NCBI RefSeq assembly: GCF_022179345.1 | Contig: NZ_BPQR01000043.1 | Location: 62,001-126,000 of the forward strand | Reading direction: 5' to 3' | DNA length: 64,000 nucleotides | Origin: Methylobacterium jeotgali | GTDB taxonomy: Bacteria > Pseudomonadota > Alphaproteobacteria > Rhizobiales > Beijerinckiaceae | Shown: positions 577 through 21,296 of the stretch, piece by piece | Position numbering within the stretch: the first letter of the stretch is position 1 | Layout: the number at the start of each line of letters is the position of its first letter | The notes under the pieces: model-generated | Seen by the model: only the letters and a program-made list of their open reading frames with translations | The model's database searches: none | What the model was told of the DNA's origin: nothing | Made by a program: the position numbers and the translations under genes

Positions 577-674
577 GCTGTCCCTCCTGCGCCCGGCGCG
601 GCGCCCGCGCGGACGGTCCCGAGACGGCCGGCGCGCAGGACGGCGCGCGCCGGCCGCGATGCCCTGAGACGCGC

Positions 675-2848: not shown

Positions 2849-3376
2849 TCAGGCGGAGGGCGACGTCTCCGCCTCCCCGGCCGGCGTGGCGAGGCGCTCC
2901 TTCAGCGCCTCCATCAGCGCCGGGTCCTTGAGGAGCGCCTTGATCTGGTCGCTCGCGGCGGCCTTGCCGTCCATGTAGCGCAGGAGGTTGGCGAGCTGCT
3001 CGCGCGCCTCCAGCAGCTTGGCCAGCGGCGGCACCTGCCGCGCCACGGCGGCGGGGCCGAAATCGTCGATCTTCTTGAAGTGCAGCTCGACCGAGAGCTT
3101 CGAATCGCTGTCGGAGAGCTTGTCCTGCACGTTGAAGCGCACGCCCGGATCGATCGCGGCCATGCGCTGATCGAAGTTGTCCATGTCGATGTCGACGAAC
3201 TTGCGCTCGGCCATGTCCGGCTTCTCGACGGAGGAGGCGTTCCCGGACAGGTCCGACATCACCCCCATCACGAAGGGCAGCTCGACCTTGCGCTCGGCGT
3301 CGTAGGGATCCTCGTAGGTGATGTGCACCCGAGGCGGCCGGTTGCGCTTGATGAACTTATGGCTCGAATCGGACAT
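2849..3376 (-). CDS. tssB: T6SS contractile sheath small subunit TssB
   Basis: TssB (VipA family) pairs with TssC to form the sheath. The 175 residues show HKFIKRNRPPRVHITYE, then LPFVMGVMSDLSG and RKFVDIDMDNFDQRM, all characteristic, and a C-terminal LRYMDGKAAASDQIKALLKD. I chose the ATG at 3376 because GGAAGGA lies upstream; the ATG at 3406 would add ten unconserved residues. Upstream at 3415-3433 is the TTGG-N5-CCAA element shared with tssK, so this gene probably heads the leftward tssB-tssC-hcp-tssE operon. Confidence 0.95.
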   Translation of the reverse strand: MSDSSHKFIKRNRPPRVHITYEDPYDAERKVELPFVMGVMSDLSGNASSVEKPDMAERKFVDIDMDNFDQRMAAIDPGVRFNVQDKLSDSDSKLSVELHFKKIDDFGPAAVARQVPPLAKLLEAREQLANLLRYMDGKAAASDQIKALLKDPALMEALKERLATPAGEAETSPSA

Positions 3377-3414
3377 GGCGCGTCCTTCCAAGGCTGCCGC
3401 CCCCACGGGGCAGG

Positions 3415-4973: not shown

Positions 4974-5549
4974 CTACGGGGCCCGCAGCCGGGTCTCGAC
5001 CCGCCGGTTCTCGCTCGCCATCGGATCGGGCACCAGCGGCTTCTGCTTGCCGTAGCCCATCGCCTCGAGGCGGGCGCCGGGCACACCGCTATGGGTGAGG
5101 TAGTCGACCACCGCCCCGGCGCGGCGCATGGAGAGGTCGAGGTTGAACGAATCGCTGCCGGCGCCGTCGGTGTGGCCCTCGACGAGGAAGCGGGCGCCCG
5201 CCAGCGCCGGGTCCCGCAGGGCGCGGGCGAACTCGTCGAGATTGGTCCGCGCCGCCGGGGTGAGCCGGGCGGAGTTGTAGTCGAAGTTCACCCGCAGATC
5301 GAAGCCGTCGACAGTCCTGGCCGGTTCTGGTACGTCTTTGGCGCATTCGGTCTCGGTTCCGATGCAGAGCGCCCGCGGGCGGCCCAGGCTCTTCGGAGGC
5401 GCGGCGCCGGGGGTGAAGTGGGCCACGATGTCCGCCGCTCTGTAGGCCGGGTCCGCCAGGGCGGCGCCGGCGAGCAGCAACGCGCCGGAGGCCGCACCGA
5501 GGATCGCGGGGGTCACGAGCTGTGCGCAGTATCGAATCGCAGATGTCAT
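4974..5549 (-). CDS. T6SS-linked OmpA-family peptidoglycan-binding protein
   Basis: The 191-residue product has an N-terminal hydrophobic signal (LVTPAILGAASGALLLAGAALA) and a C-terminal OmpA domain with FLVEGHTDGAGSDSFNLDLSMRRA and NRRVETRL, the usual peptidoglycan-binding pattern. It is probably periplasmic or outer-membrane associated. It is the first gene of the leftward block, divergent from vgrG and 15 bases before tssA, so it may anchor the T6SS to the wall. TssL here also carries an OmpA domain, so the system would have two wall anchors. No lipobox is seen. Confidence 0.75.
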   Translation of the reverse strand: MTSAIRYCAQLVTPAILGAASGALLLAGAALADPAYRAADIVAHFTPGAAPPKSLGRPRALCIGTETECAKDVPEPARTVDGFDLRVNFDYNSARLTPAARTNLDEFARALRDPALAGARFLVEGHTDGAGSDSFNLDLSMRRAGAVVDYLTHSGVPGARLEAMGYGKQKPLVPDPMASENRRVETRLRAP

Positions 5550-5622: not shown

Positions 5623-7488
5623 GTGCCGAAATCCAGCGCGGATCGAACGGTGGACTCGACGGATCTACAAGACTTCTCGCAAGGTAGCCGTGTCGCCGAG
5701 CTGGTGACTTCGGCTGGCAAGGACAAGTTCGTTCTTCTTCGCTTCGAGGGTGAGGAAGGCTTGAGCCGGCTGTTCGAATACCGGATCGAGGCCCTGTGCC
5801 GGGACCGGAACTTCGATTTCGACGCGCTGCTCGGCAAGAAGGCCCATGTCCGCTTTCGCTCCTACGAGGGCGTCGACCGCTACTTCAGCGGCCTCGTCGT
5901 GGACACGGAATGGACCGGCGTGCGGCAGGCCGCCAACGCCTACCGGCTGACGCTGCGCCCCTGGCTCTGGCTGCTCGGCCGCCGCTCCGACTGCCGGATC
6001 TTCAAGGACAAGAACGTCCTCGACATCATCGAGGACGTGTTCCGCAAGGCCGGCTTCTCCGACTACGAGATCCGGGCGGCGCGGGGCGAGTACGACAAGA
6101 TCGAGTACTGCGTGCAGTACCGCGAGACCGATCTCGGCTTCGTCTCCCGGCTGATGGAAGAGTGGGGGGTCTACACCTTCTTCGAGCATAGCGAGGGCGG
6201 GCACAAGCTCGTGCTGGCCGATTCGCGCTCCTGCCACCGGCCGGTCAAGGCGGGCGGCGGCGCGATCCCCTTCATCGCGCTCGGCGGCCAGGACCGGCGC
6301 GAGCGCGAGCACGTCTCGACCTGGCGCTCGGAGCGCCGCTTCCGCAGCGGACGGTTCACGAGCCTCGACTACGACTACATGAAGCCGACGGCCGACCTGA
6401 AGGCCGACGCGCAGGGCGCCGAGCGCTACGAGAAGGCCTCCCTGGAGCGCTACGACTATCCCGGCCGCTACACGGAGAACGACCTCGGCCGCAAGCGGGT
6501 GAAGGTGCGCCTCGAGGCCGAGCAGGCCCTCGACCACCGCCGCTCCGCCTCCGGGGACGCCGCGAGCCTCTATCCCGGCGGCCTCGTCACCATGCGCCAG
6601 CACCCGACCGACGACGGCCAGTACCTCGTCGTCTCCGCCCGCCACACCATCCAGGCGGAGGCCTATCGCAGCGGCGAGGCGGCCGAGGGCGAGCTCTACA
6701 GCGGCGTCTACGAGATTCAGCCCGTCGACCGGCCGTTCCGGGCGCCGCCCGTCACGCCCCGGCCCCTGGTGCAGGGCCCGCAGACGGCCGTGGTCACCAC
6801 GCGCAAGGGCCGGGAGAGCGAGGAGATCGACGTCGACGAGGAGGGGCGGATCTTCGTCCAGTTCCACTGGAACCGCGACCGGGACAAGATCTCCCGCCCC
6901 GTGCGCGTCGCGCAGATGTGGTCCGGCAAGTCCTGGGGGTTCCAGGTCATCCCGCGGGTCGGCCAGGAGGTCGTCGTGCAGTTCCTGGAGGGCGACCCGG
7001 ACCAGCCGCTGGTCGTCGGGACCGTCTACAACAAGGATTACCCCTATCCCTACAAGCTGCCCGACGAGAAGACCGTCTCGGGCATGAAGTCCGATTCGAC
7101 CAAGGGCCACGGCGGCTTCAACCAGCTCACCTTCGACGACAAGAAATCCTCCGAGAAGGTGGTGTTCCGGGCCGAGAAGGACCTCGAATCGGTGGTGCGC
7201 AATTCGGAGACCCGCGAGGTCGGCGTCGCCTTCGACACGCCCTCCGGCAAGCCGTCGCGCTCGACGACCCTCAAGAACGGCGACGAGAAGCTCAAGGTCG
7301 AGAGCGGCAACTGGAAGGCCGAGGTCGCCCAGGAGGTGCACATCAAGGCCGGCACGCGGCTCGTCCTCGAGGTCGGCGCAAGCAAGATCACCATGGACCC
7401 GGCCTCGATCACCATCGAGGCGGGCAAGATCACGCTGCAGGGCACGGCGCTGATCGAGGAGAAGGCGCCTCTCATCACCCTCAACTGA
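5623..7488 (+). CDS. vgrG: T6SS spike protein VgrG (TssI)
   Basis: VgrG forms the trimeric spike at the tube tip. The 621-residue product has the gp27-like N-terminal part (FEGEEGLSRLFEYRIEAL, then FRKAGFSDYEIR and the QYRETDLGFVSRLMEEWGVYTFFEH signature) and the gp5-like OB-fold and beta-helix (VRVAQMWSGKSWGFQVIPRVGQEV, then LEGDPDQPLVVGTVYN). It ends in a short repeat segment without an added effector domain. The start is uncertain: GTG at 5623 or in-frame GTG at 5650. The neighbour 11 bases downstream may be an adaptor or cargo-related protein. Confidence 0.95.
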   Translation: MPKSSADRTVDSTDLQDFSQGSRVAELVTSAGKDKFVLLRFEGEEGLSRLFEYRIEALCRDRNFDFDALLGKKAHVRFRSYEGVDRYFSGLVVDTEWTGVRQAANAYRLTLRPWLWLLGRRSDCRIFKDKNVLDIIEDVFRKAGFSDYEIRAARGEYDKIEYCVQYRETDLGFVSRLMEEWGVYTFFEHSEGGHKLVLADSRSCHRPVKAGGGAIPFIALGGQDRREREHVSTWRSERRFRSGRFTSLDYDYMKPTADLKADAQGAERYEKASLERYDYPGRYTENDLGRKRVKVRLEAEQALDHRRSASGDAASLYPGGLVTMRQHPTDDGQYLVVSARHTIQAEAYRSGEAAEGELYSGVYEIQPVDRPFRAPPVTPRPLVQGPQTAVVTTRKGRESEEIDVDEEGRIFVQFHWNRDRDKISRPVRVAQMWSGKSWGFQVIPRVGQEVVVQFLEGDPDQPLVVGTVYNKDYPYPYKLPDEKTVSGMKSDSTKGHGGFNQLTFDDKKSSEKVVFRAEKDLESVVRNSETREVGVAFDTPSGKPSRSTTLKNGDEKLKVESGNWKAEVAQEVHIKAGTRLVLEVGASKITMDPASITIEAGKITLQGTALIEEKAPLITLN

Positions 7489-8057: not shown

Positions 8058-8100
8058 GCGTGCGCCGGCGGAGGAACTCCCACCGGGGAAGGGCTTGACG

Positions 8101-9507
8101 ATGACGCTCGTCCTGACGATCGAGAATCTCGACCGGCTGCCGGATGGCGGTCCGCTCAGCGTCAGCCTGTCGGGTCGGCGCGGCATCGACATCGGACGCG
8201 ACCAGTATCTCGATTGGACCCTGCCCGACCCCGACCGGGTGATCTCCGGTAAGCACGCCGAGATCCGCCACCGCGACGGCGGCTACTGGTTGCAGGACGT
8301 GTCGCGCAACGGCACGTTCCTCAACCGCAGCGGCCAGCGTCTCCAGGAAGCCTGCCGGCTGCGAGAAGGCGACCGCATCGAGATCGGCCGCTACGTGATC
8401 CGCGTCGCCATCGAGGGCGAGGCCGAGGCGGCCCCGCCGGCCCCCGCGGCGGAGCGGCCCGCGCCGGGCGACTTCTGGGACGGCCAAGGCGAATCGGCCC
8501 CGCCGATCCCGAGCCGCGACCTGAGGCCGCCCGCCGCGCTGAAGCCCGTGCGTCCGGACTTCATCGACTGGGCCGTCGACCTGCCGACCGATCCCGGCCG
8601 GCCGGCGGTCGCACCTGCCGGGGGCGCGGCCGGTGACGGCATGGACTGGGCGCGGGCGACCCCCGAGCCACCTCCCCCTCCGCCGCCGCCGATACCCTCT
8701 CCCCGCCGCGCCGCCCCGCCCGTCGAGGACGACCCGGCGGGACCCGCCGCCTGGGCGTCTCCGGCGCGGCCGACGCCCGGTCCCGGCGAGGGCGACCCCT
8801 GGGGCACCGCCGATCTCCAGATCGCCGCGCCGGCCCCGCCGCGGCCAGCAGTCGAGGACCGTGTCCCGCGGGAGCCGCCGCAGCCGCGAATGCCGGACCC
8901 TGCACCGCCCGTTCCGCGCCCGGCCGGCATCGGCGGAGATGCCTTCGTCAGGCGGTTCGCGGCCGGGCTCGGGGTCTCGCCGGAGGTTCTGTCCTGGCAG
9001 GACCCGGAGGCGCTGGCCGAGGAGGCCGGCGCCCTGCTCCGCCTCTCCGCGGAGAGCCTCAAGCAGCTGCTCGCCGCCCGCGCCGAATCGAAGCGCACGG
9101 CCAAGGCGTCGAGCCAGACCACGATCCAGGCGCTCGACAACAACCCCCTCAAGTTCGCGCCGACCGTGGACGATGCGCTCCGCATCATGCTCGGGCCCCC
9201 GTCGAGCGGCTACCTGGAGGCGCGCCGGGCCATGGAGACCGGGTTTCGCGACCTGAAGGCGCATCAGGTCAAGACCTACGCCGCCATGCAGAACGCCGCG
9301 CGGCTGCTTCTCGACCAGCTGAGCCCCGAGGGTGTCGAGGCCTCCGACGAGGGCGACCGGGGCCTCGGGGGGCTGCTGGGCTCGCGCAAGGCCCGGCTCT
9401 GGGACCTCTACGCCACCCGCTGGGACGCGCTGGCCTCCCCCCACGACGACGGCATGGTCGACGCCTTCATGGTCTTCTTCGCCGACTGCTACGACCGCAA
9501 CCGCTAG
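8101..9507 (+). CDS. tagH: T6SS-associated FHA-domain protein TagH
   Basis: The N-terminal forkhead-associated domain (about residues 20-105) has GIDIGRDQYLDWTL, SGKHAEI, and SRNGTFLNR, the phosphothreonine-binding pattern. A long Pro/Ala-rich linker follows, then a C-terminal T6SS FHA domain (ALDNNPLKFAPTVDDALRIML, then GYLEARRAMETGFRDLKAHQ). In T6SS, such FHA proteins read threonine phosphorylation by PpkA and control assembly. I use the ATG at 8101; a TTG two codons earlier is possible. ppkA and pppA lie downstream on the same strand, completing the phosphorylation circuit. Confidence 0.9.
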   Translation: MTLVLTIENLDRLPDGGPLSVSLSGRRGIDIGRDQYLDWTLPDPDRVISGKHAEIRHRDGGYWLQDVSRNGTFLNRSGQRLQEACRLREGDRIEIGRYVIRVAIEGEAEAAPPAPAAERPAPGDFWDGQGESAPPIPSRDLRPPAALKPVRPDFIDWAVDLPTDPGRPAVAPAGGAAGDGMDWARATPEPPPPPPPPIPSPRRAAPPVEDDPAGPAAWASPARPTPGPGEGDPWGTADLQIAAPAPPRPAVEDRVPREPPQPRMPDPAPPVPRPAGIGGDAFVRRFAAGLGVSPEVLSWQDPEALAEEAGALLRLSAESLKQLLAARAESKRTAKASSQTTIQALDNNPLKFAPTVDDALRIMLGPPSSGYLEARRAMETGFRDLKAHQVKTYAAMQNAARLLLDQLSPEGVEASDEGDRGLGGLLGSRKARLWDLYATRWDALASPHDDGMVDAFMVFFADCYDRNR

Positions 9508-9521
9508 GCCCTCGCGCCGGC

Positions 9522-9540: not shown

Positions 9541-9632
9541 GCCGCTATGCATCGACCCTGGCCGGGCGACGGCCGGCATCGGGGCGGCCCCGCGGGACTT
9601 CTTCCGTCCCGGGGCCGGGAGAGCGGGCGGCG

Positions 9633-10970
9633 ATGTCGTGGAAGAGCAAGGTGGTCTGGTCCGAGGGCCTGTTCCTGCGGCCGCACCACCTCCAGCAGAG
9701 CGACCGCTACGTCGAGGGTCTGGTCGAGAGCCGCACCCGCCACGTCACGCCCTATCCGTGGGGATTCTCGGCCGTCGAGATCGACCGGGACCTCGCCCAG
9801 CAGAGCCGGTTCGGGCTGCGTCGCGCCGTCGGCGTGATGCCCGACGGGACGCCCTTCGACATCCCCGCCGAATCGCCCCCGCCCCCGCCGATCGACGTGC
9901 CCGAGGGGGCCGGGCGGCAGGTGCTGTGGCTGACCCTGCCGCTCGGCTCGCCGAACACCCGCGAGATCGAGCCGGAGGGCACCGAGGGCGCGAGCCGCTT
10001 CGTGCCCGCGAACGTGCGCCTCATCGACACCGCCTCGGCGCTGCGGGTCGAGGAGGAGATCGAGGTCGCCCAGCCCCGCCTCGCCTACGCGCTGCGCAAG
10101 ACCGCCAAGCCCGGCTACGTCGCCCTGCCGATCGCCCGGGTCGTCGAGGTCCGCGACCGGGCCATCGTCTTCGACGAGACCTTCGCGCCGCCGGTGCTGA
10201 CCTGCGCGAGCCACCCCGTCGTCCACGGCTGGATCGAGCGGGTCATCGGCTGGATCGAGAACAAGCTTGAGGAGCTCGCCCGCTACGCCGCCGACCCGAC
10301 CGCCGGCGGCGGCCTCCAGAGCGCCGACTACTTCATCCTGCAACTGCTCAACCGGCACATCCCGGTGCTGCGCCACTTCGAGCAGTCCCGCTACGTCCAT
10401 CCGGAGCGGCTCTACGAGGAGTTCCTGCGCATCGCGGGCGAGCTCGCCACCTTCACGACGAGCGAGCGACGGGCGCGGACCTATCCAGCGTACGACCACG
10501 ACGACCTGGAGACCACCTTCGCCCCGGTGGTGCGCGACATCCAGGACTTCCTCTCCGCGCAGCTCGGCCGCCGCGCGATCCGGCTGGAGATCATCGAGCG
10601 GGCGCCGAACGCCTTCGTCTCCACGATCCGCGACCGCAACCTGTTCCGCAACGCGAGCCTCGTCCTCGAGGTCGCCGTGCGCCGGCCGCTCACCGAGATC
10701 CAGAGCCAGTTCCCGCACCTGTTCAAGGTCGGGCCGAACACGAAGATGAACGAGATCGTCCACGCCCACCTGCCCGGCGTGCCCCTCGTCCACCTGCCGA
10801 CGCCGCCCCCGCAGATCCGGGCGATCACCGACCACGTTTACTTCCTGCTCGACCGGCAGTCGCCGCTCTGGCCGGAGTTCTCGGTCGCCAGCTCCATCGG
10901 CATGCACTTCTCCGGCGACTGGCCGGAGCTGGAGCTGGAGCTGTGGGCCGTGCTGGAGGGGCGCCGGTGA
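9633..10970 (+). CDS. tssK: T6SS baseplate protein TssK
   Basis: TssK links the baseplate wedge to the membrane complex. The 445-residue product begins with the diagnostic SKVVWSEGLFLRPHHLQQ, continues with the shoulder and neck regions, and ends with FSVASSIGMHFSGDWPELELELWAV, a typical TssK close. The ATG at 9633 gives the canonical N-terminus. It appears to open the rightward tssK-tssL-tssM-tagF-pppA-ppkA unit, with the shared palindrome upstream, and tssL begins 28 bases after it. Confidence 0.96.
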   Translation: MSWKSKVVWSEGLFLRPHHLQQSDRYVEGLVESRTRHVTPYPWGFSAVEIDRDLAQQSRFGLRRAVGVMPDGTPFDIPAESPPPPPIDVPEGAGRQVLWLTLPLGSPNTREIEPEGTEGASRFVPANVRLIDTASALRVEEEIEVAQPRLAYALRKTAKPGYVALPIARVVEVRDRAIVFDETFAPPVLTCASHPVVHGWIERVIGWIENKLEELARYAADPTAGGGLQSADYFILQLLNRHIPVLRHFEQSRYVHPERLYEEFLRIAGELATFTTSERRARTYPAYDHDDLETTFAPVVRDIQDFLSAQLGRRAIRLEIIERAPNAFVSTIRDRNLFRNASLVLEVAVRRPLTEIQSQFPHLFKVGPNTKMNEIVHAHLPGVPLVHLPTPPPQIRAITDHVYFLLDRQSPLWPEFSVASSIGMHFSGDWPELELELWAVLEGRR

Positions 10971-10998: not shown

Positions 10999-12471
10999 GT
11001 GAACGACCCGTTCGGCCGCGGCGACCGCACCATCATCCTGCCGGACCCCGGCGGCCGGCGGCCGGCGGCCCCCGATCCCCGCCCGTCGGCCCCGGCTCCG
11101 CAGCCGGCATCCCGGCCGCAGGCGCCTCCTTCCTGGCCGACGGCGCCCGCGGCGACGCCCGCCTCCGGCGCGGCCGACCCGGACGACTGGGCGCTCTCGG
11201 ACACCGCCGCCCGCAACCGCGCCCCTCCCCCCGCCGCGGAGCCCAACGAGCGCCGCCGGGCGCTGGTGCTGAAGCGGGACGTGGTGAGCGCGCCCAACGC
11301 CAACCCATTCCTGCGGGCGGCGGCCCCGCTGCTGCTGCTGCTCGGCCGCCTGCGGGTGCAGCTCTCGACCGCCTCCTTCTCGAACCTCATGGAGCAGGTC
11401 GCGGCGAGCATCGACGATTTCGAGAAGGACACCCGCGGCTCCGGCGCCTCTCCCGAGCAGGTGCGGGCGGCGAAGTACATCGTCTGCGCCACCGCCGACG
11501 ACATCGTCCAGAACATCCCCACCGACGAGCGCCACGTCTGGACCCAGTACAGCATGCTGAGCCGCTTCTTCGGCGAGCGCGTCGGCGGGGTGCGCTTCTT
11601 CGAGGAGCTGGAGAAGGCGAAGGTCGACCCGAGCGGCAACTACCACCTGCTCGAGCTCATCCACGCCTGCCTCGGCATCGGCTTCCAGGGCATGCACCGC
11701 AGCGGCGGCGGCGGCGCGGCCGCGCTCCAGACCATCCAGCGCAACCTCTACGAGCTGCTGCGCCGGACGCGGCCCCTCATCCGCGAGGTCTCGCCCCGCT
11801 GGCAGGGCCAGCCCATCGCCGCCGAGGCGTTCCGGGTGCAGATCCCGCTCTGGGCGACGGCGGCCGTCGTGGGCGTGGTGCTGCTCGGCCTGTTCCTGGC
11901 CCTGCGCACGATGCTGACCGGCAACGCCGAGGCCGCGGCCACCGATCTCGTCTCCCTGCATCCGACGACGGAGATCGGCCTCCAGCGCCGGGTCTACGCC
12001 CCGCCTCCCCCGCCGCCGCCCCCTCCCCCGCCGGAGAGCCAGGCCGCCCGCTACCAGGACATCCTGAAGGCCGAGATCGCGGACGGCTCGATCGCCGTCG
12101 TCGAGAACGGCAACCAGATCGTGCTGCGCATCGCCGCGGCGCTGTTCCCGCCCGCCGACGCGCGGGTGAAGCCCGCCTTCGCCGGCCTGCTGCAACGCCT
12201 CGCCGGGCTCCTCGACAAGGGCGCCGGGCCGATCCGCATCGTCGGGCACACCGACATCTTCCCGATCAAGACGGTGCGCTTCCCCTCGAACTTCGAGCTC
12301 TCGCAGGCCCGCGCGCAGGCCGTCGCCGAGATCGTCAAGGGCGGCCTCGCCAAGCCCGACCGGATCGAGACCGAGGGCAAGGGCGCCGACGTGCCGATCG
12401 CCTCGAACGCGACGCCGGAAGGCCGGGCGCGCAACCGGCGCGTCGACATCGTCGTGCCCCGCGCGCGCTAG
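10999..12471 (+). CDS. tssL: T6SS membrane-complex protein TssL with OmpA domain
   Basis: TssL (DotU/IcmH family) is an inner-membrane component of the T6SS trans-envelope complex. The 490 residues comprise a Pro/Ala-rich head (1-85), a cytoplasmic DotU domain (about 95-275, with AKYIVCATADDIVQNI and YHLLELIHACLGIGFQGMHR), one membrane helix (about 282-306), a Pro run (335-345), and a C-terminal OmpA domain (VGHTDIFPI, NRRVDIVV) in the periplasm. This is the extended, peptidoglycan-binding TssL type. The start is GTG with GGAGG upstream. Confidence 0.95.
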   Translation: MNDPFGRGDRTIILPDPGGRRPAAPDPRPSAPAPQPASRPQAPPSWPTAPAATPASGAADPDDWALSDTAARNRAPPPAAEPNERRRALVLKRDVVSAPNANPFLRAAAPLLLLLGRLRVQLSTASFSNLMEQVAASIDDFEKDTRGSGASPEQVRAAKYIVCATADDIVQNIPTDERHVWTQYSMLSRFFGERVGGVRFFEELEKAKVDPSGNYHLLELIHACLGIGFQGMHRSGGGGAAALQTIQRNLYELLRRTRPLIREVSPRWQGQPIAAEAFRVQIPLWATAAVVGVVLLGLFLALRTMLTGNAEAAATDLVSLHPTTEIGLQRRVYAPPPPPPPPPPPESQAARYQDILKAEIADGSIAVVENGNQIVLRIAAALFPPADARVKPAFAGLLQRLAGLLDKGAGPIRIVGHTDIFPIKTVRFPSNFELSQARAQAVAEIVKGGLAKPDRIETEGKGADVPIASNATPEGRARNRRVDIVVPRAR

Positions 12472-12508: not shown

Positions 12509-15500
12509 ATGACGCTTCGGGCTTGGGCACGCCTCGCGGCGCTCGTCCTCGGCGCGCTGGCGCTCGCGGCGCTCGTCTGGTGGGCCGGCCCGCTCGTCGC
12601 GGTGGCGGATGTGCGTCCGCTCGATCCGGTCTGGGTCCGGGCCCCGCTCTGCGCGCTGATCCTCCTCGGGGTCGGGGGCTTCATCGGCTGGGAGGCCTGG
12701 CGCCGGCGCAAGGCGATGCGGGCGCTCCAGGCCGAGCTGGCCGGCGGTGACGCCGAGCCGGCGGGCGACGGCGACGTTCTCAAGGAGCGCATGGCCGACG
12801 CGCTGGCGACGCTGGCGAAGTCCCGCGGCGGCAAGGGCAACCACCTCTACGACCTGCCCTGGTACGTGATCATCGGCCCGCCGGGTGCCGGCAAGACCAC
12901 GGCGCTGGTGCGCTCGGGCCTGAAGTTTCCGCTCGCCAAGGGCAAGACCCCCGAGGCCGTGGCCGGCCTCGGGGGCACCCGCTACTGCGACTGGTGGTTC
13001 ACCGAGGAGGCCGTGCTCATCGACACGGCCGGCCGCTACACGACGCAGGATTCCGATCCCAAGGGCGACCGGGCGAGCTGGCTCGCCTTCCTCGACCTCC
13101 TCCACCGGTCGCGGCCGAAGCAGCCGATCAACGGCGTGCTCATCGCCATCAGCCTGGAGGACCTGCTCACCGGCGACGAGGCCGCGATCGAGGCCCACGC
13201 GAGCGCGATCCGCAAGCGGCTCCTCGAGCTGCACGAGCACCTGAAGGTCGACTTCCCCGTCTACGCGGTCTTCACGAAGGCCGACCTCGTCGCCGGCTTC
13301 ACCGAGTTCTTCGGGCAACTCTCCGAGGCCGACCGCCAGATGGTCTGGGGCCACACCTTCCAGACCACCGACAAGACCCGCAACATGATCGGCGAGGTCG
13401 CGCCCGAGTTCGACGCCCTCGTCGAGCGCCTCAACGAGTGGATGCCCGACCGCCTGCAGGACGAGGTCGCCCCGACCTCGCGGGTGGTGCTGTTCGGCTT
13501 TCCGAGCCAGGTGGCCGCAGCCCGCGCCAAGGTCGTCGACTTCCTCGGCCGGGTGTTCGAGCCGAGCCGCTTCCACGTCAACGCGACCCTCCGGGGCTTC
13601 TACTTCACCTCCGGCACCCAGGAGGGCACGCCGATCGACCAGCTCATCGGCGCCCTCTCCCGCAGCTTCGGCTCGGAGGATGTCGGTGCCGCCGCCTACT
13701 CGGGGCGGGGCCGGAGCTACTTCCTCACCGATCTCCTTCGGAAGGTCGTCATCGGCGAGGCGGGCTGGGTCTCCACCAACCGCGCAGCCATCCGCCGCAC
13801 GAACCTCCTGCGGCTCGGGGCCTATGCGGGCCTGGCGCTGGCCTCGGCCGTGCTCGTCGGCCTCTGGTGGACGAGCTTCCTGCGCAACGGGCAGCTCGTG
13901 GCGCTCACGAACGCGCTGACGGGCAAGTACCGCGCCGACGCCGCCGAGACCCTGCGCGAGCCTGTGATCGCCGACCGCAACTTCTCCAAGGTGCTGCCGC
14001 TCCTCAACTCGCTCCGCTACCTGCCCACCGGCTACGCCACCCGCGACGAGGGCGAGCCGGTGCTCGCGACCTTCGGCCTGAGCCAGCGTCCCCGCCTGCG
14101 CTCGGCCGCCGAGACGAGCTACCGGGCCGGGCTCGAGCGCCTGTTCCGGCCGCGGCTGATCTTCCGCCTCGAGGAGCAGCTGGAGGCGAACCGCGCCAAT
14201 CCGGGCTTCGTCTACGAGGCGCTCAAGGTCTACCTGATGCTCGGCGGCCGGGCCGAGGTCCCCCTCGACCGGGACCTCGTGGTCGGCTGGTTCCGGCGGG
14301 ACTGGGCGGAGAACCTCTACCCCGGCGCTGGCTTCGCCCGCGGGCGCCAGCTTCTGGAGGACCACCTCCTCGCGACCCTCGACCTCGACGACGGCAGCGC
14401 ACCCCTCGTCACCCTGAACCAGGCGCTCATCGAGGACGGGCAGCGCACGCTCGCCCGGCTCAGCATCGCCGAGCGCACCTACGAGCTTCTGAAGTCCGAG
14501 GCCCGCGGCGCGACCGCGCGCGACTGGACCGTGCAGCGGGCCGGCGGCGCCGATGCAGGCCTCGTCTTCGAGGTCGCGGGCGGCGGCGACCTCGACGCGG
14601 TGCGCGTGCCCTTCTTCTTCACCTATGACGGGTTCTTCGAGGCCTTCATCGACCGCTTCGGCGAGGCGGCCGACATCGCCGAGCGCGACCGCTGGGTGCT
14701 GGGGCCGGCTGGCGAGCAGCAGGCCTACCGGAGCCAGTACGGCTCGCTCTTCCCCGACCTCCTGCGGATCCATGCCCGCGAGTTCCAGCAGGCCTGGTCG
14801 CAGGCGCTCAAGCGGCTCAAGGTCCGCCCCCTCACCGCCGACAAGCCGCGCTACCTCGCCCTCCAGGCGATCGCTGCGCCGACCTCGCCCCTCAAGCTCG
14901 TGATCGAGTCGATCGGCGAGGAGACGCGGCTCACCCGCGAGCGTCCGGCCAAGCCCGGCGCGCCGGCCGCCGACACCCGGGCGGGGCGGGCGAAGGCGGT
15001 GCTTGGCGCCGCGGCCGGCCGCGAGGCGGAGAGCCGCGTCGGCGCCGTCCTGCCCTCCGGTGCCGCCGAGACCGCCGCCGCCCTCGGTCGCCTCGCCGCC
15101 GAGGGGCGCCCGGCGGCGACCGCCCCCGGCGAGCGCTTCGCTCAAGGAGCGAACCAGGCGCCCGGCGCCGCCATCGAGGCGGGCTTCCGGCCGTTCCACG
15201 TGCTCACGGAGGGCGAGCCCGGCCGCCGCGCGACCGATGTGCTGCTCGCCAACCTCAACGAGATCAAGAACGCGGCGATCGAGGCGACGAACCCCGGGCA
15301 GGCTCCCGCCGCGAACAACGCGCTGGTGACGCAGACCGCGGCGCTGCGCTCGCTGGCGGCGCGCTTCCCCCAGCCCTTCGAGGCGATGATCCGCCAGATC
15401 GCCGGCGAGTTCGAGGGCAGCGCGACGGGCGCCGCGCTGGGCCATCTCGGCAAGGCGCTCGCCGACGAGGTTCTGCGGGAGTGCCAGCAGATCGCCGCCA

Positions 15501-16156
15501 ACCGCTACCCCTTCGCCCGCAACAGCGACCGCGAGGTCCCGCTCGCCGACTTCGCCCGCCTGTTCGCCCCGAACGGCGTCTTCGACCGCTTCTTCGCCCA
15601 GAATCTCGCGAGCCGGGCCGACCGCTCGCGTCCGCAATGGGCCTGGCGGATCGACGATCAGGTCGCCCGCGGGCTCTCGGCGGCGACGCTCCGGGAGTTC
15701 CAGCGGGCGGCCGAGATCCGGGACGCCTTCTTCTCGACCGGGGGCTCGATGCCGGCGGTCGCCTTCTCGGTCACGCCGCTCTCGATGACGGGGGATGCCG
15801 GCCGCGCCACCCTCGACATCAACGGCACGGCGGTCGTCGCGCAGGGCGGCGTCGGCGCCCCCGTCACCGTGCAGTGGCCGGGTCCGGCGAGCCCGGCGCG
15901 CACCGCCCTCCAGATCGAGGGTACGCCGAGCTTCTTCGGCACCTCGGGCGGCGGGACCGCCGCCGTCGAGAAGCTCGGCACCTGGTCGCTGTTCCGGCTC
16001 CTCGACGGCGGCTCGGTCCTCAAGCAGGGCGACGCTGTGGTGGCCACCCTCACCGCCGGGTCGCGCCAGCTCGCGCTGCGCTTCACCACCAGCACCGTTC
16101 AGAACCCCCTGGTGCTGCCGGCGCTGCGGGAGTTCCGCTGCCCGACGGGGATCTAG
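12509..16156 (+). CDS. tssM: T6SS membrane-complex protein TssM (IcmF)
   Basis: TssM is the large inner-membrane and periplasmic scaffold of the T6SS. The 1215-residue product has two N-terminal membrane helices (about 5-30 and 45-65), a cytoplasmic NTPase-like domain with Walker A GPPGAGKT at residues 123-130, a third helix near 433-455, and a long periplasmic part ending in a beta-rich C-terminal domain. Two ORF-rich shadows on the other strand reflect codon bias only. tagF starts one base after its stop codon, so the two are coupled. Confidence 0.96.
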   Translation: MTLRAWARLAALVLGALALAALVWWAGPLVAVADVRPLDPVWVRAPLCALILLGVGGFIGWEAWRRRKAMRALQAELAGGDAEPAGDGDVLKERMADALATLAKSRGGKGNHLYDLPWYVIIGPPGAGKTTALVRSGLKFPLAKGKTPEAVAGLGGTRYCDWWFTEEAVLIDTAGRYTTQDSDPKGDRASWLAFLDLLHRSRPKQPINGVLIAISLEDLLTGDEAAIEAHASAIRKRLLELHEHLKVDFPVYAVFTKADLVAGFTEFFGQLSEADRQMVWGHTFQTTDKTRNMIGEVAPEFDALVERLNEWMPDRLQDEVAPTSRVVLFGFPSQVAAARAKVVDFLGRVFEPSRFHVNATLRGFYFTSGTQEGTPIDQLIGALSRSFGSEDVGAAAYSGRGRSYFLTDLLRKVVIGEAGWVSTNRAAIRRTNLLRLGAYAGLALASAVLVGLWWTSFLRNGQLVALTNALTGKYRADAAETLREPVIADRNFSKVLPLLNSLRYLPTGYATRDEGEPVLATFGLSQRPRLRSAAETSYRAGLERLFRPRLIFRLEEQLEANRANPGFVYEALKVYLMLGGRAEVPLDRDLVVGWFRRDWAENLYPGAGFARGRQLLEDHLLATLDLDDGSAPLVTLNQALIEDGQRTLARLSIAERTYELLKSEARGATARDWTVQRAGGADAGLVFEVAGGGDLDAVRVPFFFTYDGFFEAFIDRFGEAADIAERDRWVLGPAGEQQAYRSQYGSLFPDLLRIHAREFQQAWSQALKRLKVRPLTADKPRYLALQAIAAPTSPLKLVIESIGEETRLTRERPAKPGAPAADTRAGRAKAVLGAAAGREAESRVGAVLPSGAAETAAALGRLAAEGRPAATAPGERFAQGANQAPGAAIEAGFRPFHVLTEGEPGRRATDVLLANLNEIKNAAIEATNPGQAPAANNALVTQTAALRSLAARFPQPFEAMIRQIAGEFEGSATGAALGHLGKALADEVLRECQQIAANRYPFARNSDREVPLADFARLFAPNGVFDRFFAQNLASRADRSRPQWAWRIDDQVARGLSAATLREFQRAAEIRDAFFSTGGSMPAVAFSVTPLSMTGDAGRATLDINGTAVVAQGGVGAPVTVQWPGPASPARTALQIEGTPSFFGTSGGGTAAVEKLGTWSLFRLLDGGSVLKQGDAVVATLTAGSRQLALRFTTSTVQNPLVLPALREFRCPTGI

Positions 16157-16157
16157 G

Positions 16158-16844
16158 ATGCCCTGCGGCCTCTACGGCAAGCTGCCGGCCAAGCGCGACT
16201 TCATCGCCCTTTCCGTGCCCGGCGCCTTCCTGCGGGTCTTCGAGCCCTGGCTCCAGGCGGGTCTGGCGGCGAGCCGCCTCGCGCTCCGCGAGGCTTGGCA
16301 GCCCGCCTATCTCCGTGCGCCGATCTGGCGCTTCTGGCTCGGCACGGAGGTGGCCGGCGCCGGCTCGCTCGGGGCGATCATGCCCTCCGTCGACGGGATC
16401 GGCCGCTACTTCCCCCTGACCCTCGTCGGCCAGGCCGGCTCCGGCGGCGTGCCGCGCCCCCCGGAGCTCGACCCCTGCGACGGCTGGTTCGAGGGGGCGG
16501 AGAGCCTGCTCCTGTCCGTCCTGACCGACGAGACCGGCTTCGAGGCGGTGGCGGCCGCGCTGGCGGCCTGCCCGGACCCGCCGGCGCCTCCCGAGCCCCT
16601 ATCGGGAGGAGGCGTCGTCCGGCTGCGCGGCGGAGCGCTCGTCGCTCCGGCGGCCGCGGGTCTCGGCGAGGCGCTCGGGGCCTTGAGGACGCCCGGCGCC
16701 GCGCGCCTGCATGCCGGTATGACCTACTGGTGGACGCCCGGCGGCGAGGGCTTCGCGCCGCGGGTCGCATCCTGCCGCGGGATGCCGGACCCGGCCTTCG
16801 TCACCGGCATGCTGACGGGGGATTTCGATGACCTCGCCGCATGA
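16158..16844 (+). CDS. tagF: T6SS regulatory protein TagF (ImpM)
   Basis: TagF is a post-translational repressor of T6SS assembly in systems with PpkA and PppA. The 228-residue product starts MPCGLYGKLPAKRDFIALSV and contains WRFWLGTEVAGAGSLGAIMPSVDGIGRYFPLTL, the family signature. The ATG begins one base after the tssM stop, and the end overlaps the pppA start by 17 bases. This is a stand-alone TagF, not the TagF-PppA fusion seen in some relatives. Confidence 0.92.
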   Translation: MPCGLYGKLPAKRDFIALSVPGAFLRVFEPWLQAGLAASRLALREAWQPAYLRAPIWRFWLGTEVAGAGSLGAIMPSVDGIGRYFPLTLVGQAGSGGVPRPPELDPCDGWFEGAESLLLSVLTDETGFEAVAAALAACPDPPAPPEPLSGGGVVRLRGGALVAPAAAGLGEALGALRTPGAARLHAGMTYWWTPGGEGFAPRVASCRGMPDPAFVTGMLTGDFDDLAA

Positions 16845-17688
16845 TCCCGGGGCGGTACCCGGGCCTGCCGCCTGGGCCTCGCCGGAGGCGCCGCTGCGGG
16901 TCGAGGCCGGCTCCGTCACGCATCCGGGCATGGTCCGGGCCGAGAACGAGGACCGCTGCCTCGCCGCGCCCGATCTCGGGGTCTTCGCCGTCGCCGACGG
17001 CATGGGCGGCCACGCGGACGGGGCGCTCGCCAGCGCCACCGTCGTCGAGGCGCTGGCCTCGATCGGCGCGGCCGTCTCCGCCGCCGACCTGATGGCGCGC
17101 CTGGAGGACCGCATCCTGCGGGCCAACGCCACCCTGTGGGCGTCGGGCCAGGCCCGCGGCGGGATCGTCGGCTCGACGGTGGCGGTGCTGCTGATCTACG
17201 GCCGCGACTTCGCCTGCGTCTGGTCGGGCGACAGCCGCATCTACCGCATCCGCGGCGGCGCCATCGAGCAGCTCACCCGCGACCACACCGAGGGCCGCGA
17301 CCTGTTCGAGCGCGGCCTGCTCAGCGCGAGCGAGATGGCGGCCTGGCCGCGCCGGCACGTCATCACCCGCGCGGTGGGCGTGCGCGAGCGGCCCGAGGTC
17401 GACCTGGAGCAGGGCACGCTGGAGCCCGGCGACGTGTTCGTGATCTGCTCGGACGGGCTCACCGGTCCGCTCTCCGACCGCGACATCCTGCTCTCCGCCG
17501 GCACGTCCGCCCCGCAATGGGCCTGCGACGCCCTCCTCGCCCTCGCCCTCGACCGGGGCGCGCCGGACAATGTCAGCGCCGTCATCGTCCGCTTCGGGGC
17601 GCCCTCGCCCGGCCGCCGCTCGGCCGCATCCGCGCCGGGAGAGACCGTGGCGATGCTCGGCGCGCGCGGCGACGGGAGGCCGTCATGA
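16828..17688 (+). CDS. pppA: T6SS PP2C-family phosphatase PppA
   Basis: This protein phosphatase opposes PpkA. The 286-residue product has the metal-binding PP2C motifs: GMVRAENEDR, VFAVADGMGGHADGA, WSGDSRIYRIR, VICSDGLTG, and a C-terminal DNVSAVIV. It is cytoplasmic, with no membrane helix. The start overlaps tagF by 17 bases and the stop overlaps the ppkA ATG in an ATGA junction, giving tight coupling of phosphatase and kinase synthesis. Confidence 0.94.
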   Translation: MTSPHDPGAVPGPAAWASPEAPLRVEAGSVTHPGMVRAENEDRCLAAPDLGVFAVADGMGGHADGALASATVVEALASIGAAVSAADLMARLEDRILRANATLWASGQARGGIVGSTVAVLLIYGRDFACVWSGDSRIYRIRGGAIEQLTRDHTEGRDLFERGLLSASEMAAWPRRHVITRAVGVRERPEVDLEQGTLEPGDVFVICSDGLTGPLSDRDILLSAGTSAPQWACDALLALALDRGAPDNVSAVIVRFGAPSPGRRSAASAPGETVAMLGARGDGRPS

Positions 17689-19622
17689 GCGAGCGCACCG
17701 TGGTCGAGCCGCGCCCGCCCGCGCGGGCCGGGCCGGGAACGCGGCTCAACGACCTCTACGAGATCGACGCCCTGCTGGCGGCCGGCGGCATGGGCGAGGT
17801 CTTCCGCGGCCACGCCATCGAGACCGGCGACGCGGTCGCGATCAAGACCATCCGCCCGGACTTCGCCGGCAACGCCCAGGCGCTCGCCCTCTTCCGCAAG
17901 GAGGCGGCGGCGCTGCGCGACGTCCACCACGGCGCGGTGGTGCGCTACTACGTGTTCTCGATCGACCGCCGGCTCGACCTCCCCTACCTCGCCATGGAGT
18001 TCGTCACCGGCGAATCCCTGGCCGAGCGCCTGCGGAGCGGCCCCCTCTCCTTCGAGGAGGTCGAGATCCTGCGCCGGCGCCTCGCCGGCGGCCTCCAGGC
18101 GGCCCACGAGGCCGGGATCGTCCACCGGGACATCTCGCCCGACAACGTGATCCTGCCCGGGGGCGACCCGGCGCGGGCCAAGATCATCGATTTCGGCATC
18201 GCCCGCTCGGCCACCGGCCAGACGGTGATCGGCGACGGCTTCGCCGGTAAGTACGACTACGTCTCCCCCGAGCAGCTCGGTCTCCAGGGGGGCGACGTCA
18301 CCGCCCGCTCCGACATCTACAGCCTTGGCCTGGTCCTCGCCGAGGCGAGCCGGGGCCGGCGGGTCGACATGGGGGGCAGCCCCGCGGAGTTCGTCGCCCG
18401 CCGCTCGGCGCTGCCCGACCTCGCCGGCCTCGACGCGCGCCTGCGCCCCCTGATCGAGGCGATGCTCCAGCCCGACCCGTCCCGGCGCCCCGAGAGCATG
18501 GCGGCGGTGGAATCCTGGCGTCCGGTGGCCCGCGACGTGCCGCGGGCGATCCCGCCGGCCCGCAGGGGCCGCGTCGTCGCCCTCGTGCTCGGCACCCTCG
18601 CCCTCGCGGCGGCCGTCGTCGCCGCGCTCCTGCTCTCCCGGCCGGAGACGACGGCGCCGCCGCAGGCCGGTGGCCCGGCTCTCTCGGAGCGTCCTGTCCC
18701 GGCAGAGGCGCCGAGACTCGATACGGCGCCCGCCGAGCAGGCGGCGCCCGGCGGCCGGACCGCGCCGAGCGGGCCCGCCCTCCCCCCCGCCTCGGAGACC
18801 CCCGAAGGCAAGGCCGCCACCGCCCCGTTGCAGACGCCCGGCAGCGAGCCCGGCCCGGATCAGGCGGATGGCGGGCGCGGCCGCAACACCCCGACGGTCT
18901 CGGAGTCGCCGAGCCAGGGCGCGGCGGCCCCGGAGAACCGGCCGAAGCCTGCGACCGCGCCCGTCGCTCCCCCGGTCACGCCTCCGACCGCGCCCTCGCC
19001 CACGCCGATCGAGCGGGTCGCGGCCTTCATCCGCGATTACCGCGGCGGCCCCTGCTTCTTCCTCAACCCGACGGCGGTGGGGGCCGCGAGCGCCACGGTC
19101 GAGGCCTACGGCACCGACCCGGCACCCGCCCGGGCCTTCGACGCCGCCTTCCGCGCCGCCTTCGGCTTCGAAGCTCGTATCCAGCTTCGGCAGATCGAGA
19201 GCGGCCAGTGCCCTGTGATCGAGCTTCTCGCCGCGCAGGCGCAGGCGAAGCCGGCCGGCGTCCCGATCCTGCAGATCGACGCGGACAGGATACGCGGCGG
19301 GGACGAGCTGAAGGGCCGCGTCGAGTGGGGCGATCCTCGCAGCCTGAGGCTGTGGCTGGTCGAGGGCGACGGCACCCTGCACGACCTCACCGGATCCCTG
19401 AAGCGGGGAGAGGGCCGGGCCGGCTTCGCCGTCCGCCTCGAGAGGCCGGCGGGAGACCCGTGGCGGCCGCAGCTTCTCGTCGCGGTGTCGGGTGGAGAGG
19501 CCGCCGCCCGGCAGGGCTCGGGGCGCCAGACCGAGGCCCTGTTCCCGGCGCTCGCGCGGCAGGCCGCGAGCCCCGGAGGCGCGGTCGGCGTCGCCGTGCG
19601 CTACCTCAAGGTCGGAGGCTGA
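17685..19622 (+). CDS. ppkA: T6SS transmembrane Ser/Thr kinase PpkA
   Basis: The 645-residue product has a Hanks-type kinase domain (about residues 25-280): glycine loop AAGGMGEVF, lysine in VAIK (K54), HRDISPDN (D149), DFG (D169) and the YVSPEQ segment. One membrane helix (about 296-318) follows, then a Pro/Ala-rich periplasmic linker and a C-terminal domain that starts near RVAAFIRDYRGGPCFFLNP. The external domain presumably senses an envelope signal, and TagH is the likely phosphothreonine reader. It overlaps pppA by 4 bases and is followed by the zinc-ribbon/transglycosylase gene after 3 bases. Confidence 0.93.
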   Translation: MSERTVVEPRPPARAGPGTRLNDLYEIDALLAAGGMGEVFRGHAIETGDAVAIKTIRPDFAGNAQALALFRKEAAALRDVHHGAVVRYYVFSIDRRLDLPYLAMEFVTGESLAERLRSGPLSFEEVEILRRRLAGGLQAAHEAGIVHRDISPDNVILPGGDPARAKIIDFGIARSATGQTVIGDGFAGKYDYVSPEQLGLQGGDVTARSDIYSLGLVLAEASRGRRVDMGGSPAEFVARRSALPDLAGLDARLRPLIEAMLQPDPSRRPESMAAVESWRPVARDVPRAIPPARRGRVVALVLGTLALAAAVVAALLLSRPETTAPPQAGGPALSERPVPAEAPRLDTAPAEQAAPGGRTAPSGPALPPASETPEGKAATAPLQTPGSEPGPDQADGGRGRNTPTVSESPSQGAAAPENRPKPATAPVAPPVTPPTAPSPTPIERVAAFIRDYRGGPCFFLNPTAVGAASATVEAYGTDPAPARAFDAAFRAAFGFEARIQLRQIESGQCPVIELLAAQAQAKPAGVPILQIDADRIRGGDELKGRVEWGDPRSLRLWLVEGDGTLHDLTGSLKRGEGRAGFAVRLERPAGDPWRPQLLVAVSGGEAAARQGSGRQTEALFPALARQAASPGGAVGVAVRYLKVGG

Positions 19623-19625
19623 GCG

Positions 19626-21296
19626 GTGGCGGGCCGTCCCGAGGCCGAGCTCGACGAGGGCGCCTGTCTCGACCTCGTGATGCGCCTGCGCTTCGCGGAC
19701 GCACCCTGCAAGGCCTGCGGCGGCCGGGAGGGCTTCCGGCGCGAGAGCCGCAACCGGGCCTTCTCCTGCCGGGCCTGCGGCATGAAGGTGTTCCCCTGCC
19801 AGGACACGCCCTTCGCGAGGCCGCGCCCGTCGCTGGCGCAGTGGTTCCTCGCCGTCGATCTCGCCGCCCGCGGCGAGGGCTCCCAGCGCACCCTGCGCCG
19901 GCGGCTCGGCGTCGACGGCCGGACCGCGGCGGAGATCGAGGCGGGCCTGCGGCGACTGCGGGCGGCGGCCGATCCCGGCACGCAGGCCGGCTGGTTTCCC
20001 GCGATCGCGTCCTTCGTTGCCGCGCACCGGACCGGGGCCGCCGCGCCCGCACCGGAGCCCGCCGCGACCTCTCCGGGGGGCGCCGCGCCGATGGCGGCCG
20101 ATCCCGGCCGGGAGACGCTCTGGCAGACCCTGCGCTCCCTCGTGGCGCTTCCCCAGGGGCTCGGCCGGGTCGAGCAGCGTCCGCTGCTCGGCATCGCCGC
20201 CATCATCCTGTTCATGCTGGCCGGGGCCGGGATCGGCTGGCTCATCGTGCCGCCGGCCTCCGAATCCGACGGCGAGGTCGAGCAGGCCACCGCCATGCTC
20301 AGCCTCGGGGAGCGCACCCCCGTCATCCTGGTCTCGCCCGAGGTCGCCGCCCAGCTCTACGACGTCACCGACGTCGACGCCGACCCGGACTCGCCGCTCG
20401 CCTCCTCGATCCGGGTCGACCCGAAGCTCGACAAGAGCGGCGCGCCCACGGTCGTGCCCGGCGCGGGGCCGGCGGCCCCGCCCTCGGTGAAGCTCTCCGC
20501 CGGGGTCGGCAAGTCCCTCGTCGACGGCGACACCGACGCCGTGCGGGCGAGCGCCCGCAACCGGCCGGAACTCGCGGCCTACTCGGCGCTCGCCACAGAG
20601 CTCGAGGCCAAGGGGCCGCGCAACCCGGACGAGCTCCTCATCTTCGGCCCGATCAAGGTCCGCCGCTACCTTGTCGAGAAGATCGTGCGCGCCTCCCGGG
20701 CGACGAGCGTCGATCCCGTGCTACTCATGGCGATCGCCGACAAGGAATCGAGCTTCAAGACCGAGGTCCAGGCGCAGACCTCCTCGGCCACCGGCCTCTA
20801 CCAGTTCATCGAGAAGACCTGGCTCGGCGTCGTGCGCGATTTCGGCCCCCGCTACGGCCTGGAGAAGGAGGCGGCGCTCCTTGCCAGCGGCGAGCCGAGC
20901 CGGGCGCAGCGCGTCGCGATCCTGGAGATGCGCCGCGACCCGTATCTCTCCGCGGTGTTCGCCGCGGAGATGCTCAAGCGCGACAGCCTGCGCATCGCCC
21001 GGCGGGTCGGCCGCAACCTTACCGGCGGCGAGGTCTACCTCGTGCACTTCCTCGGTCCGGCCGGGGCCGAGCAGATGATCGACGCGGTCTCGCGCCGGCC
21101 GGAGACGGTGGCGGCCGAGCTGCTGCCGAAGCCGGCCGCCGCGAACAAGCCGATCTTCTACGGGACCGGCTCGAAGAGCCTGTCGGTGGCCGAGGTGACG
21201 GGCAAGTTCGAATCGATGATCTCGCTACGCCTCGACCGCTACCGCAGCGTCAAGGGCGTGAGCGTGCCCGAGCCCGCCGCCTCCGCGCCGCGCTGA
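19626..21296 (+). CDS. Zinc ribbon plus membrane helix plus lytic-transglycosylase protein
   Basis: The 556-residue product joins three parts. Residues 28-51 are a CxxC-N16-CxxC zinc ribbon (C28, C31, C48, C51) followed by LAQWFLAVDLA, closely like the ribbon of IS1595-type transposases, but no integrase domain follows. One membrane helix spans about 187-208. The C-terminal part (about 345-490) is transglycosylase-like, with DKESSFKTEVQ, where E374 is the likely catalytic Glu, then SSATGLYQFIEKTWLG. The topology suggests a cytoplasmic ribbon and a periplasmic wall-cutting domain. It starts GTG three bases after ppkA, so it may open peptidoglycan for this T6SS. The architecture is unfamiliar to me. 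Confidence 0.82.
   Translation: MAGRPEAELDEGACLDLVMRLRFADAPCKACGGREGFRRESRNRAFSCRACGMKVFPCQDTPFARPRPSLAQWFLAVDLAARGEGSQRTLRRRLGVDGRTAAEIEAGLRRLRAAADPGTQAGWFPAIASFVAAHRTGAAAPAPEPAATSPGGAAPMAADPGRETLWQTLRSLVALPQGLGRVEQRPLLGIAAIILFMLAGAGIGWLIVPPASESDGEVEQATAMLSLGERTPVILVSPEVAAQLYDVTDVDADPDSPLASSIRVDPKLDKSGAPTVVPGAGPAAPPSVKLSAGVGKSLVDGDTDAVRASARNRPELAAYSALATELEAKGPRNPDELLIFGPIKVRRYLVEKIVRASRATSVDPVLLMAIADKESSFKTEVQAQTSSATGLYQFIEKTWLGVVRDFGPRYGLEKEAALLASGEPSRAQRVAILEMRRDPYLSAVFAAEMLKRDSLRIARRVGRNLTGGEVYLVHFLGPAGAEQMIDAVSRRPETVAAELLPKPAAANKPIFYGTGSKSLSVAEVTGKFESMISLRLDRYRSVKGVSVPEPAASAPR

Follow-up and report, generated by a model that had tools for sequence, protein, structure and literature searches.

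Why would a domain resembling the DNA-binding end of a transposase be joined, within a T6SS cluster, to a membrane helix and a putative lytic transglycosylase (LT)? The question is raised by a gene in a stretch of 64,000 nucleotides of Methylobacterium jeotgali (the window: contig NZ_BPQR01000043.1, positions 62,001 to 126,000 of the forward strand), which encodes a fusion protein immediately downstream of the kinase gene ppkA. The recruitment of a transposase domain into a membrane-bound cell-wall enzyme is an unusual case, and searches of the open-access literature, judged from their listings, gave no description of such a ribbon-membrane helix-LT architecture in a T6SS, in agreement with the sequence-only reading that preceded this analysis, to which the architecture was likewise new.

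The fusion gene and its T6SS cluster

The features of the cluster and of the fusion protein are as follows (window coordinates).

28..705, minus strand: tssE (GPW_gp25)
675..1157, minus strand: hcp
1273..2781, minus strand: tssC, with a VipB match at C43:63666-64574 (window 1666-2574)
2849..3406, minus strand: tssB
3630..4958, minus strand: tssA (ImpA_N)
4974..5549, minus strand: small OmpA-domain protein beside tssA
5623..7488, plus strand: vgrG/tssI
8095..9507, plus strand: tagH (FHA protein)
9633..10970, plus strand: tssK
10999..12471, plus strand: tssL with a C-terminal OmpA-like domain (long form)
12509..16156, plus strand: tssM
15795..16844, plus strand: tagF, given as the open frame; TagF_N lies at residues 125-258 and the true start is probably inside
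16828..17688, plus strand: pppA, PP2C phosphatase
17685..19622, plus strand: ppkA, T6SS Ser/Thr kinase, ending 3 bases before the fusion; start 17685 chosen by eye
19626..21296, plus strand: fusion protein of 556 aa with a GTG start (IS1595-type ribbon/HTH, membrane helix, gp144-like LT)
19653..19814, plus strand: zinc-ribbon part, residues about 10-63, with C28/C31/C48/C51
19815..19970, plus strand: HTH-like helical part, residues about 64-115, homologous to the IS1595 transposase region behind the ribbon
20184..20249, plus strand: single membrane helix, residues about 187-208, N-in/C-out from charge bias
20622..21263, plus strand: LT domain, residues about 333-546, with predicted catalytic E374 (20745-20747) and Y471

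The sequence-only reading placed the start of the fusion gene three bases past ppkA, and this is borne out by the ppkA stop codon TGA at 19620-19622, which is followed by 3 bases and then by the GTG at 19626. The same reading spoke of a TssJLM complex; TssJ (PF12790), however, was not detected in this genome, so the complex here would be TssLM. TssJ was found in one of the 12 genomes searched (G707, beside its second TssK), the other 11 carrying T6SS clusters all the same, and was also not found in the fusion-less relatives G519, G549 and G035; therefore, a missing TssJ does not explain the fusion. The small OmpA-domain protein encoded between tssA and vgrG has a signal-like N-terminus with no lipobox seen by eye, and its relatives (48-67% identity) lie near vgrG at four other loci (L124, L245, L244, and L218). 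Because two of these loci are without the fusion, the protein is not tied to it; possibly it is a periplasmic anchor of the TssJ-less T6SS.

An N-terminal domain of transposase type

The N-terminus of the fusion carries the motif C28-x2-C31-x16-C48-x2-C51, and residues 10-52 match the Pfam family Zn_ribbon_IS1595 (PF12760; E 4.2e-5, 23.9 bits), just below the cut-off of 25.4 bits, which two of five other orthologues tested exceeded. When a profile of 14 fusion N-domains was compared with one of 12 IS1595 transposases by hhalign, a match of probability 99.7 (E 5.8e-26) was obtained over 113 columns, comprising the ribbon and the helical part behind it, and transposase frames of four other genomes align with fusion residues 10-116 at about 32% identity. 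By contrast, the DDE domain (DDE_Tnp_IS1595, PF12762), which is present in both IS1595-type transposases tested, gave no match in the fusion by Pfam search at E 1. The sequence-only reading had described a CxxC-N16-CxxC ribbon of the IS1595 type without the transposase. The ribbon, recovered by both PF12760 and hhalign, and the lack of the DDE domain stand; the transposase-like part is larger than was claimed, and on these alignments the N-domain (about residues 10-115) is a transposase domain that extends beyond the ribbon.

The N-domain modeled alone by AlphaFold is confident (pLDDT 87.6, pTM 0.80), with a predicted layout of a helix, two short strands, and three helices at residues 70-81, 87-94, and 98-113. 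The weak structural neighbors of this model are mostly HTH DNA-binding proteins (MarR, TrpR, and FtsK gamma), the best with a Z-score of 4.4, and values below 8 may reflect merely a common arrangement. Foldseek gave no match to the model at E 0.001, and a sequence profile of the N-domain had no significant match among solved structures (the first hit, at E 0.77, was a nanobody and the second, at E 8.9, a transposase). Fusion N-domains and transposases are both basic in this region, with mean net charges of +5.4 and +6.6. Across the fusions, mean pairwise identity is 52% in the ribbon (falling to 31%) and 35% in the HTH part, where the consensus of the transposases has drifted and is not preserved.

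Membrane topology and the putative lytic transglycosylase

The best hydrophobic window of the fusion starts at residue 190, in line with the membrane helix that had been proposed at about residues 187-208. In all 38 fusion frames, which have one such segment, the 15 residues on its N-terminal side are more positively charged than the 15 on its C-terminal side, a bias that predicts an N-in orientation with the ribbon inside and the LT domain outside. The LT paralogues of the same genome are built differently: in those on C27 and C2, the only hydrophobic segment is a short N-terminal one (around residues 45 and 48, respectively), and the relative on C30 has no clear one (best window 1.16). Just N-terminal of the helix, at residues 162-169 (window about 20109-20132), lies the motif RETLWQTL, of which E163, T164, and W166 are invariant in a 14-row alignment; it was considered as a possible phosphorylation or docking site. 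The predicted cytoplasmic E163-T164-x-W166 was rejected as a kinase/FHA site, with T164 kept in just 17 of 37 copies.

The C-terminus is a putative LT of the SLT/gp144 type. Residues 355-399 match PF01464 (SLT) at 1e-6 and 28.7 bits, above the cut-off of 21.3, and residues 356-529 match the structure of phage phiKZ gp144 (3bkh; phmmer against PDB sequences, E 3.6e-19). In gp144, Glu115 is the principal catalytic residue; Glu115/Tyr197 form the principal pair and Glu178/Tyr147 a second pair, according to the cited part of PMC5406664. By a hand count on the printed alignment, E374 and Y471 of the fusion correspond to Glu115 and Tyr197, whereas the second pair is replaced by R452 and F406. The full-length AlphaFold model of the fusion is of low quality (pLDDT 53.7, pTM 0.34) and served for the LT structure match only; Foldseek with it retrieved gp144 at E 5e-5 and MltE structures at E 1.2 or worse. 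Sequence and fold thus agree on the transglycosylase-like domain and the probable catalytic Glu 374 of the earlier reading. The gp144 enzyme (PDB 3bkh, 9xps), an endolytic transglycosylase homologous to this domain and having the principal active pair in common with it, is a phage endolysin and has no match to the ribbon-membrane helix part. NCBIfam searches of the fusion gave no model above its cut-off and no MltE-family model at E 1, and pfam13539, the L,D-endopeptidase domain of TagX, had no match at E 1. The genome encodes three other LTs of the gp144 type, and the LT domain of the fusion is 65% identical to its C27-type paralogue.

Distribution, conservation, and origin

A search of 111 Methylobacterium genomes with residues 1-333 matched 19, three of which (G015, G072, and G101) were dropped as ABC transporters, judged from their frames, with a chance match to part of residues 193-309. 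The fusion is thus present in 16 of the 111 genomes: 15 intact copies and that of G079 (L046 / L241 about 8622-10617), in which the ribbon and the membrane helix-LT part are in different frames owing to decay or sequencing error. The N-terminal profile matched 70 of 298 sampled genomes of the family, and 29 of these were classed as fusions: three in the own genus and the rest in four other genera (18 in g309, five in g338, two in g316, and one in g333). Both domains lie in one frame for 25, whereas G565, G642, G695, and G779 were classed from an N-domain match whose frame is 531-618 aa long; the remaining 41 genomes match in the N-domain alone and, after partial inspection, were taken as transposases by frame length. 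Among named records, the fusion was found in 12 of Methylobacterium, M. brachythecii and M. dankookense among them, and in one lichen Rhizobiales MAG. Among 385 class-level and 378 phylum-level genomes, the whole query was matched only within the genus, in searches that scored few candidates per genome and may have missed distant fusions. The other matches at these levels are confined to parts of the region of about residues 10-140 and lie mostly in frames as long as those of transposases; one (L086) extends to residue 174, with stops. On plasmids, 39 records match, none over 80% of the query, and the 20 listed match the LT part only. Two fusion loci (L097 and L024) have no PF12760 match at 0.05.

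The fusions are an orthologous family. The four Cys with their CxxC-16-CxxC spacing, C14, W73, E374, and Y471 are kept in all 37 intact orthologues aligned, and a chance fusion is excluded by the invariance of the four Cys, E374, and Y471. Across seven non-independent pairs, the ribbon has dN/dS values of 0.06-0.67 (0.46 or less in six), the HTH part 0.28-0.65, and the LT domain 0.05-0.21, and the ribbon value is below that of the HTH part in only five. These values indicate purifying selection on the ribbon and the LT domain, the HTH part being somewhat less constrained than the ribbon; together with the absent DDE domain, the selection on the ribbon rules out a plain IS1595 transposase remnant.

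The LT tree unites the T6SS-linked fusions in one clade (FastTree 0.997; SH-aLRT 91), which sits inside a 39-row group (support 95) that includes the C27-type housekeeping LTs and the copy of G550. The N-domain tree sets the fusions apart from the transposases, with support of 93 for the T6SS-linked fusions and 75 for all fusions. Trees under a richer model used 54 of 70 rows for the LT and 66 of 82 for the N-domain, near-copies and short rows being omitted, and in the LT tree so obtained a single clade of all fusions was not rejected (p-AU 0.56). In FastTree, the LT domain of G550 pairs with the paralogue from that genome (0.783), and its N-domain falls with the transposases when the tree is split at the midpoint. 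A single fusion event, followed by rearrangement, is the simplest account.

Association with the T6SS

The fusion adjoins ppkA in 34 of 35 genomes mapped, the window included, and homologues cluster with the T6SS rather than being scattered at random, with G550 as the one exception. Three arrangements occur: directly downstream of ppkA on the same strand (Methylobacterium and g338), tail-to-tail (g309 and g316), and between pppA and ppkA (G079). Of 12 same-strand loci, 11 have 3-4 bases between the stop of ppkA and the start of the fusion, and in one the two overlap by 4. At 14 g309 loci, 11 to 600 bases separate the frames of the fusion and ppkA (1099 in L139), with no intervening frame over 169 aa. 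Since the fusion is on the opposite strand in g309 and g316, co-translation with ppkA is not general.

TssK (TIGR03353) was found in 27 of the 111 Methylobacterium genomes, including all 16 with the fusion; the search of the 84 TssK-negative genomes yielded no fusion (Fisher p 1.6e-12, uncorrected for relatedness). Nine of the 11 TssK-positive genomes without the fusion have only a different type of TssK (443-473 bits, against 386-408 for full-length TssK of the fusion clusters); of the other two, the TssM of G110 scores only 390 bits against that of the window, and the TssK of G120 is partial. TssK was detected in 26 of the 29 fusion genomes of the family sample; the remaining three are G655 (85% complete), G669 (83% complete), and G752, whose contig ends at the ppkA match. 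The fusion of G550 (g333) is about 900 kb from its tssK-ppkA cluster; this copy (L127 about 9235-10698) has a more transposase-like N-domain (PF12760 25.7 bits, NF033547 26.7 bits).

No fusion was found in 37 of the 63 TssK-positive genomes of the family sample. At 20 fusion-less loci, one of which is G550's own cluster, no ribbon or gp144-type LT, the only wall hydrolases visible to this homology search, was found within 4.5 kb beyond ppkA, and Pfam revealed no replacement wall hydrolase among 10 selected frames beyond ppkA in sister T6SSs, five of which had no match at all. Because these sister systems of the family do without it, the T6SS in general does not need the fusion; they may use housekeeping LTs. 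Two of them encode, beyond ppkA, a caspase-domain protein (PF00656) and a DUF4384 protein (L227 10029-11801 and L224 10875-11729, respectively, both on the plus strand).

Possible roles of the fusion protein

We lean toward the view that the fusion is a dedicated own-wall cutter of one T6SS subtype, domesticated from a duplicated housekeeping LT and equipped with a ribbon/HTH docking or control module. The view draws on the adjacency to ppkA, the co-occurrence with TssK, the conserved ribbon Cys and LT active site, the topology bias, the single clade of the T6SS-linked LT domains, and the precedents of TagX and MltE in other T6SSs, and with it we infer a cutting activity, a use in T6SS assembly, docking or gating by the ribbon, and zinc binding. 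The sequence-only reading had similarly suggested that the ribbon might sense a cytoplasmic signal or bind a T6SS partner while the outer part would open peptidoglycan for the membrane complex. In an ancestor of these genera, a housekeeping gp144-like LT gene would have been duplicated, the copy would have gained a DNA-binding-type N-terminal domain of an IS1595 transposase ahead of its membrane segment, and the resulting gene would then have been fixed beside ppkA. In Methylobacterium the protein, probably co-translated with PpkA, would be placed in the inner membrane with its ribbon in the cytoplasm and its LT domain in the periplasm, where the latter may cleave the cell's own glycan strands at the site at which the TssL-TssM complex crosses the wall. 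The ribbon/HTH part, freed from the transposase, would most likely dock or control the enzyme via cytoplasmic T6SS parts (TssL, TssM, or PpkA/FHA), such that the wall would be opened at the assembly site only. Against the own-wall cutter stand the fusion of G550, unlinked to the T6SS, and the TssK-positive genomes of the family sample that lack a fusion (37 of 63); the three other gp144-type LTs of the genome could also do the wall-cutting job.

The retention of the entire ribbon and HTH region of the transposase would also suit a membrane-tethered transcription regulator of the ToxR kind, in which the ribbon/HTH part would still bind DNA, wall fragments being sensed or processed by the LT domain in the periplasm; damage to the wall, as in an attack, would then alter T6SS expression. 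The topology bias fits the ToxR-like layout of a cytoplasmic DNA-binding domain, one membrane segment, and a periplasmic domain, and the N-domain is basic, as it is in transposases (+5.4 against +6.6), and its model (pLDDT 87.6) aligns with HTH DNA-binding proteins; these alignments, however, are weak, at a Z-score of 4.4 or less in a range (below 8) that may signify a common arrangement only. Moreover, the HTH part is the less conserved half (35% against 52% identity, with higher dN/dS in five of seven pairs), the transposase consensus is not kept in it, and all 37 copies retain an intact LT active site, which a pure sensor would not need. We consider such a regulator unlikely, while keeping it in view. 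A two-faced enzyme that would cut the wall and also signal, with the state of its periplasmic LT domain deciding whether the ribbon/HTH part binds DNA (or a T6SS protein) and with wall opening or damage thereby coupled directly to expression of the T6SS kinase operon or to T6SS assembly, is distinctly unlikely in our judgment; if true, it would amount to a ToxR-like switch that derives from a transposase and has an enzyme as its sensor.

The 65% identity of the LT domain to the C27-type paralogue and the unlinked copy of G550 would suit a general LT for remodeling or repair of the wall that has its gene in the T6SS locus without a role in assembly, for example tidying up after firing or serving growth. 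Unlike its housekeeping relatives, however, the fusion was not seen in any of the 84 genomes of the genus that lack TssK, and it has ppkA as its neighbor in 34 of 35 genomes; hence, we regard this reading with considerable doubt. Wall hydrolases are common among T6SS effectors, and a self-protection or counter-enzyme or an effector/immunity component might therefore be considered, but the predicted membrane anchor with the LT domain outside, the position at ppkA in the core operon, a sequence that is conserved rather than variable, and the lack of a VgrG/PAAR-type match in Pfam and NCBIfam searches make it very improbable. Finally, the PF12760 score of the window copy just below the cut-off, the lack of this match in L097 and L024, and the split frames of G079 might hint at a chance fusion or an annotation artefact with a functionless N-domain. 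This is refuted for the family as a whole by conservation, and we give it almost no credence: the four Cys and their 16-residue spacing persist in 37 of 37 intact copies despite ribbon identities down to 31% (mean 52%), the hhalign E-value is 5.8e-26, and the dN/dS of the ribbon is below 1 in all seven pairs.

Comparison with known systems

The gene for MltE of E. coli is not known to belong to the T6SS cluster. MltE is a housekeeping LT that is used for the T6SS (Santin and Cascales 2017, as cited in PMC5841429 and PMC11444678), and it thus resembles the fusion in its housekeeping origin and in passing the T6SS through the cell's own wall, a task presumed for the fusion. It is, however, a small lipoprotein without peripheral domains, as stated in the cited part of PMC5841429. 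A likeness in location is offered by TagX of Acinetobacter, a membrane-anchored, periplasm-facing wall hydrolase that is encoded in a T6SS cluster and needed for Hcp secretion (PMC5061870), in a T6SS that is also without TssJ (PMC10564176). TagX belongs to a different enzyme family from the fusion, being described as an L,D-endopeptidase (pfam13539) in PMC5061870 and as having lytic transglycosylase activity in PMC10564176, and the cited parts of these two articles describe no ribbon for it.

The T6SS of Agrobacterium tumefaciens has a similar gene set (ppkA, pppA/tagF, tssM, tssL with a PG-binding domain, tssK, and fha; PMC3953482, PMC3702570) and is likewise without TssJ (PMC3702570), but the cited parts of these articles name no LT fusion and no wall cutter for it. 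In this bacterium, PpkA phosphorylates TssL, which leads to a change in TssM and to Fha binding (PMC3953482). By analogy, the PpkA-TssL-Fha pathway could offer a kinase-timed assembly step to which the fusion might be coupled.

The way in which the T6SS membrane complex passes through the peptidoglycan of its own cell is understood in few systems, those of MltE and TagX, and the fusion family is a specific, testable candidate for a wall cutter in Methylobacterium and its relatives. If the cytoplasmic ribbon does gate the enzyme, the own-wall cutter would show how such an enzyme stays off until a kinase pathway licenses assembly. Regarding the surroundings of the gene, a ZntB/CorA-like divalent cation transporter (window 23957-25009, plus strand), which scores below curated cut-offs, is encoded 2.7 kb downstream of the fusion, probably by coincidence.
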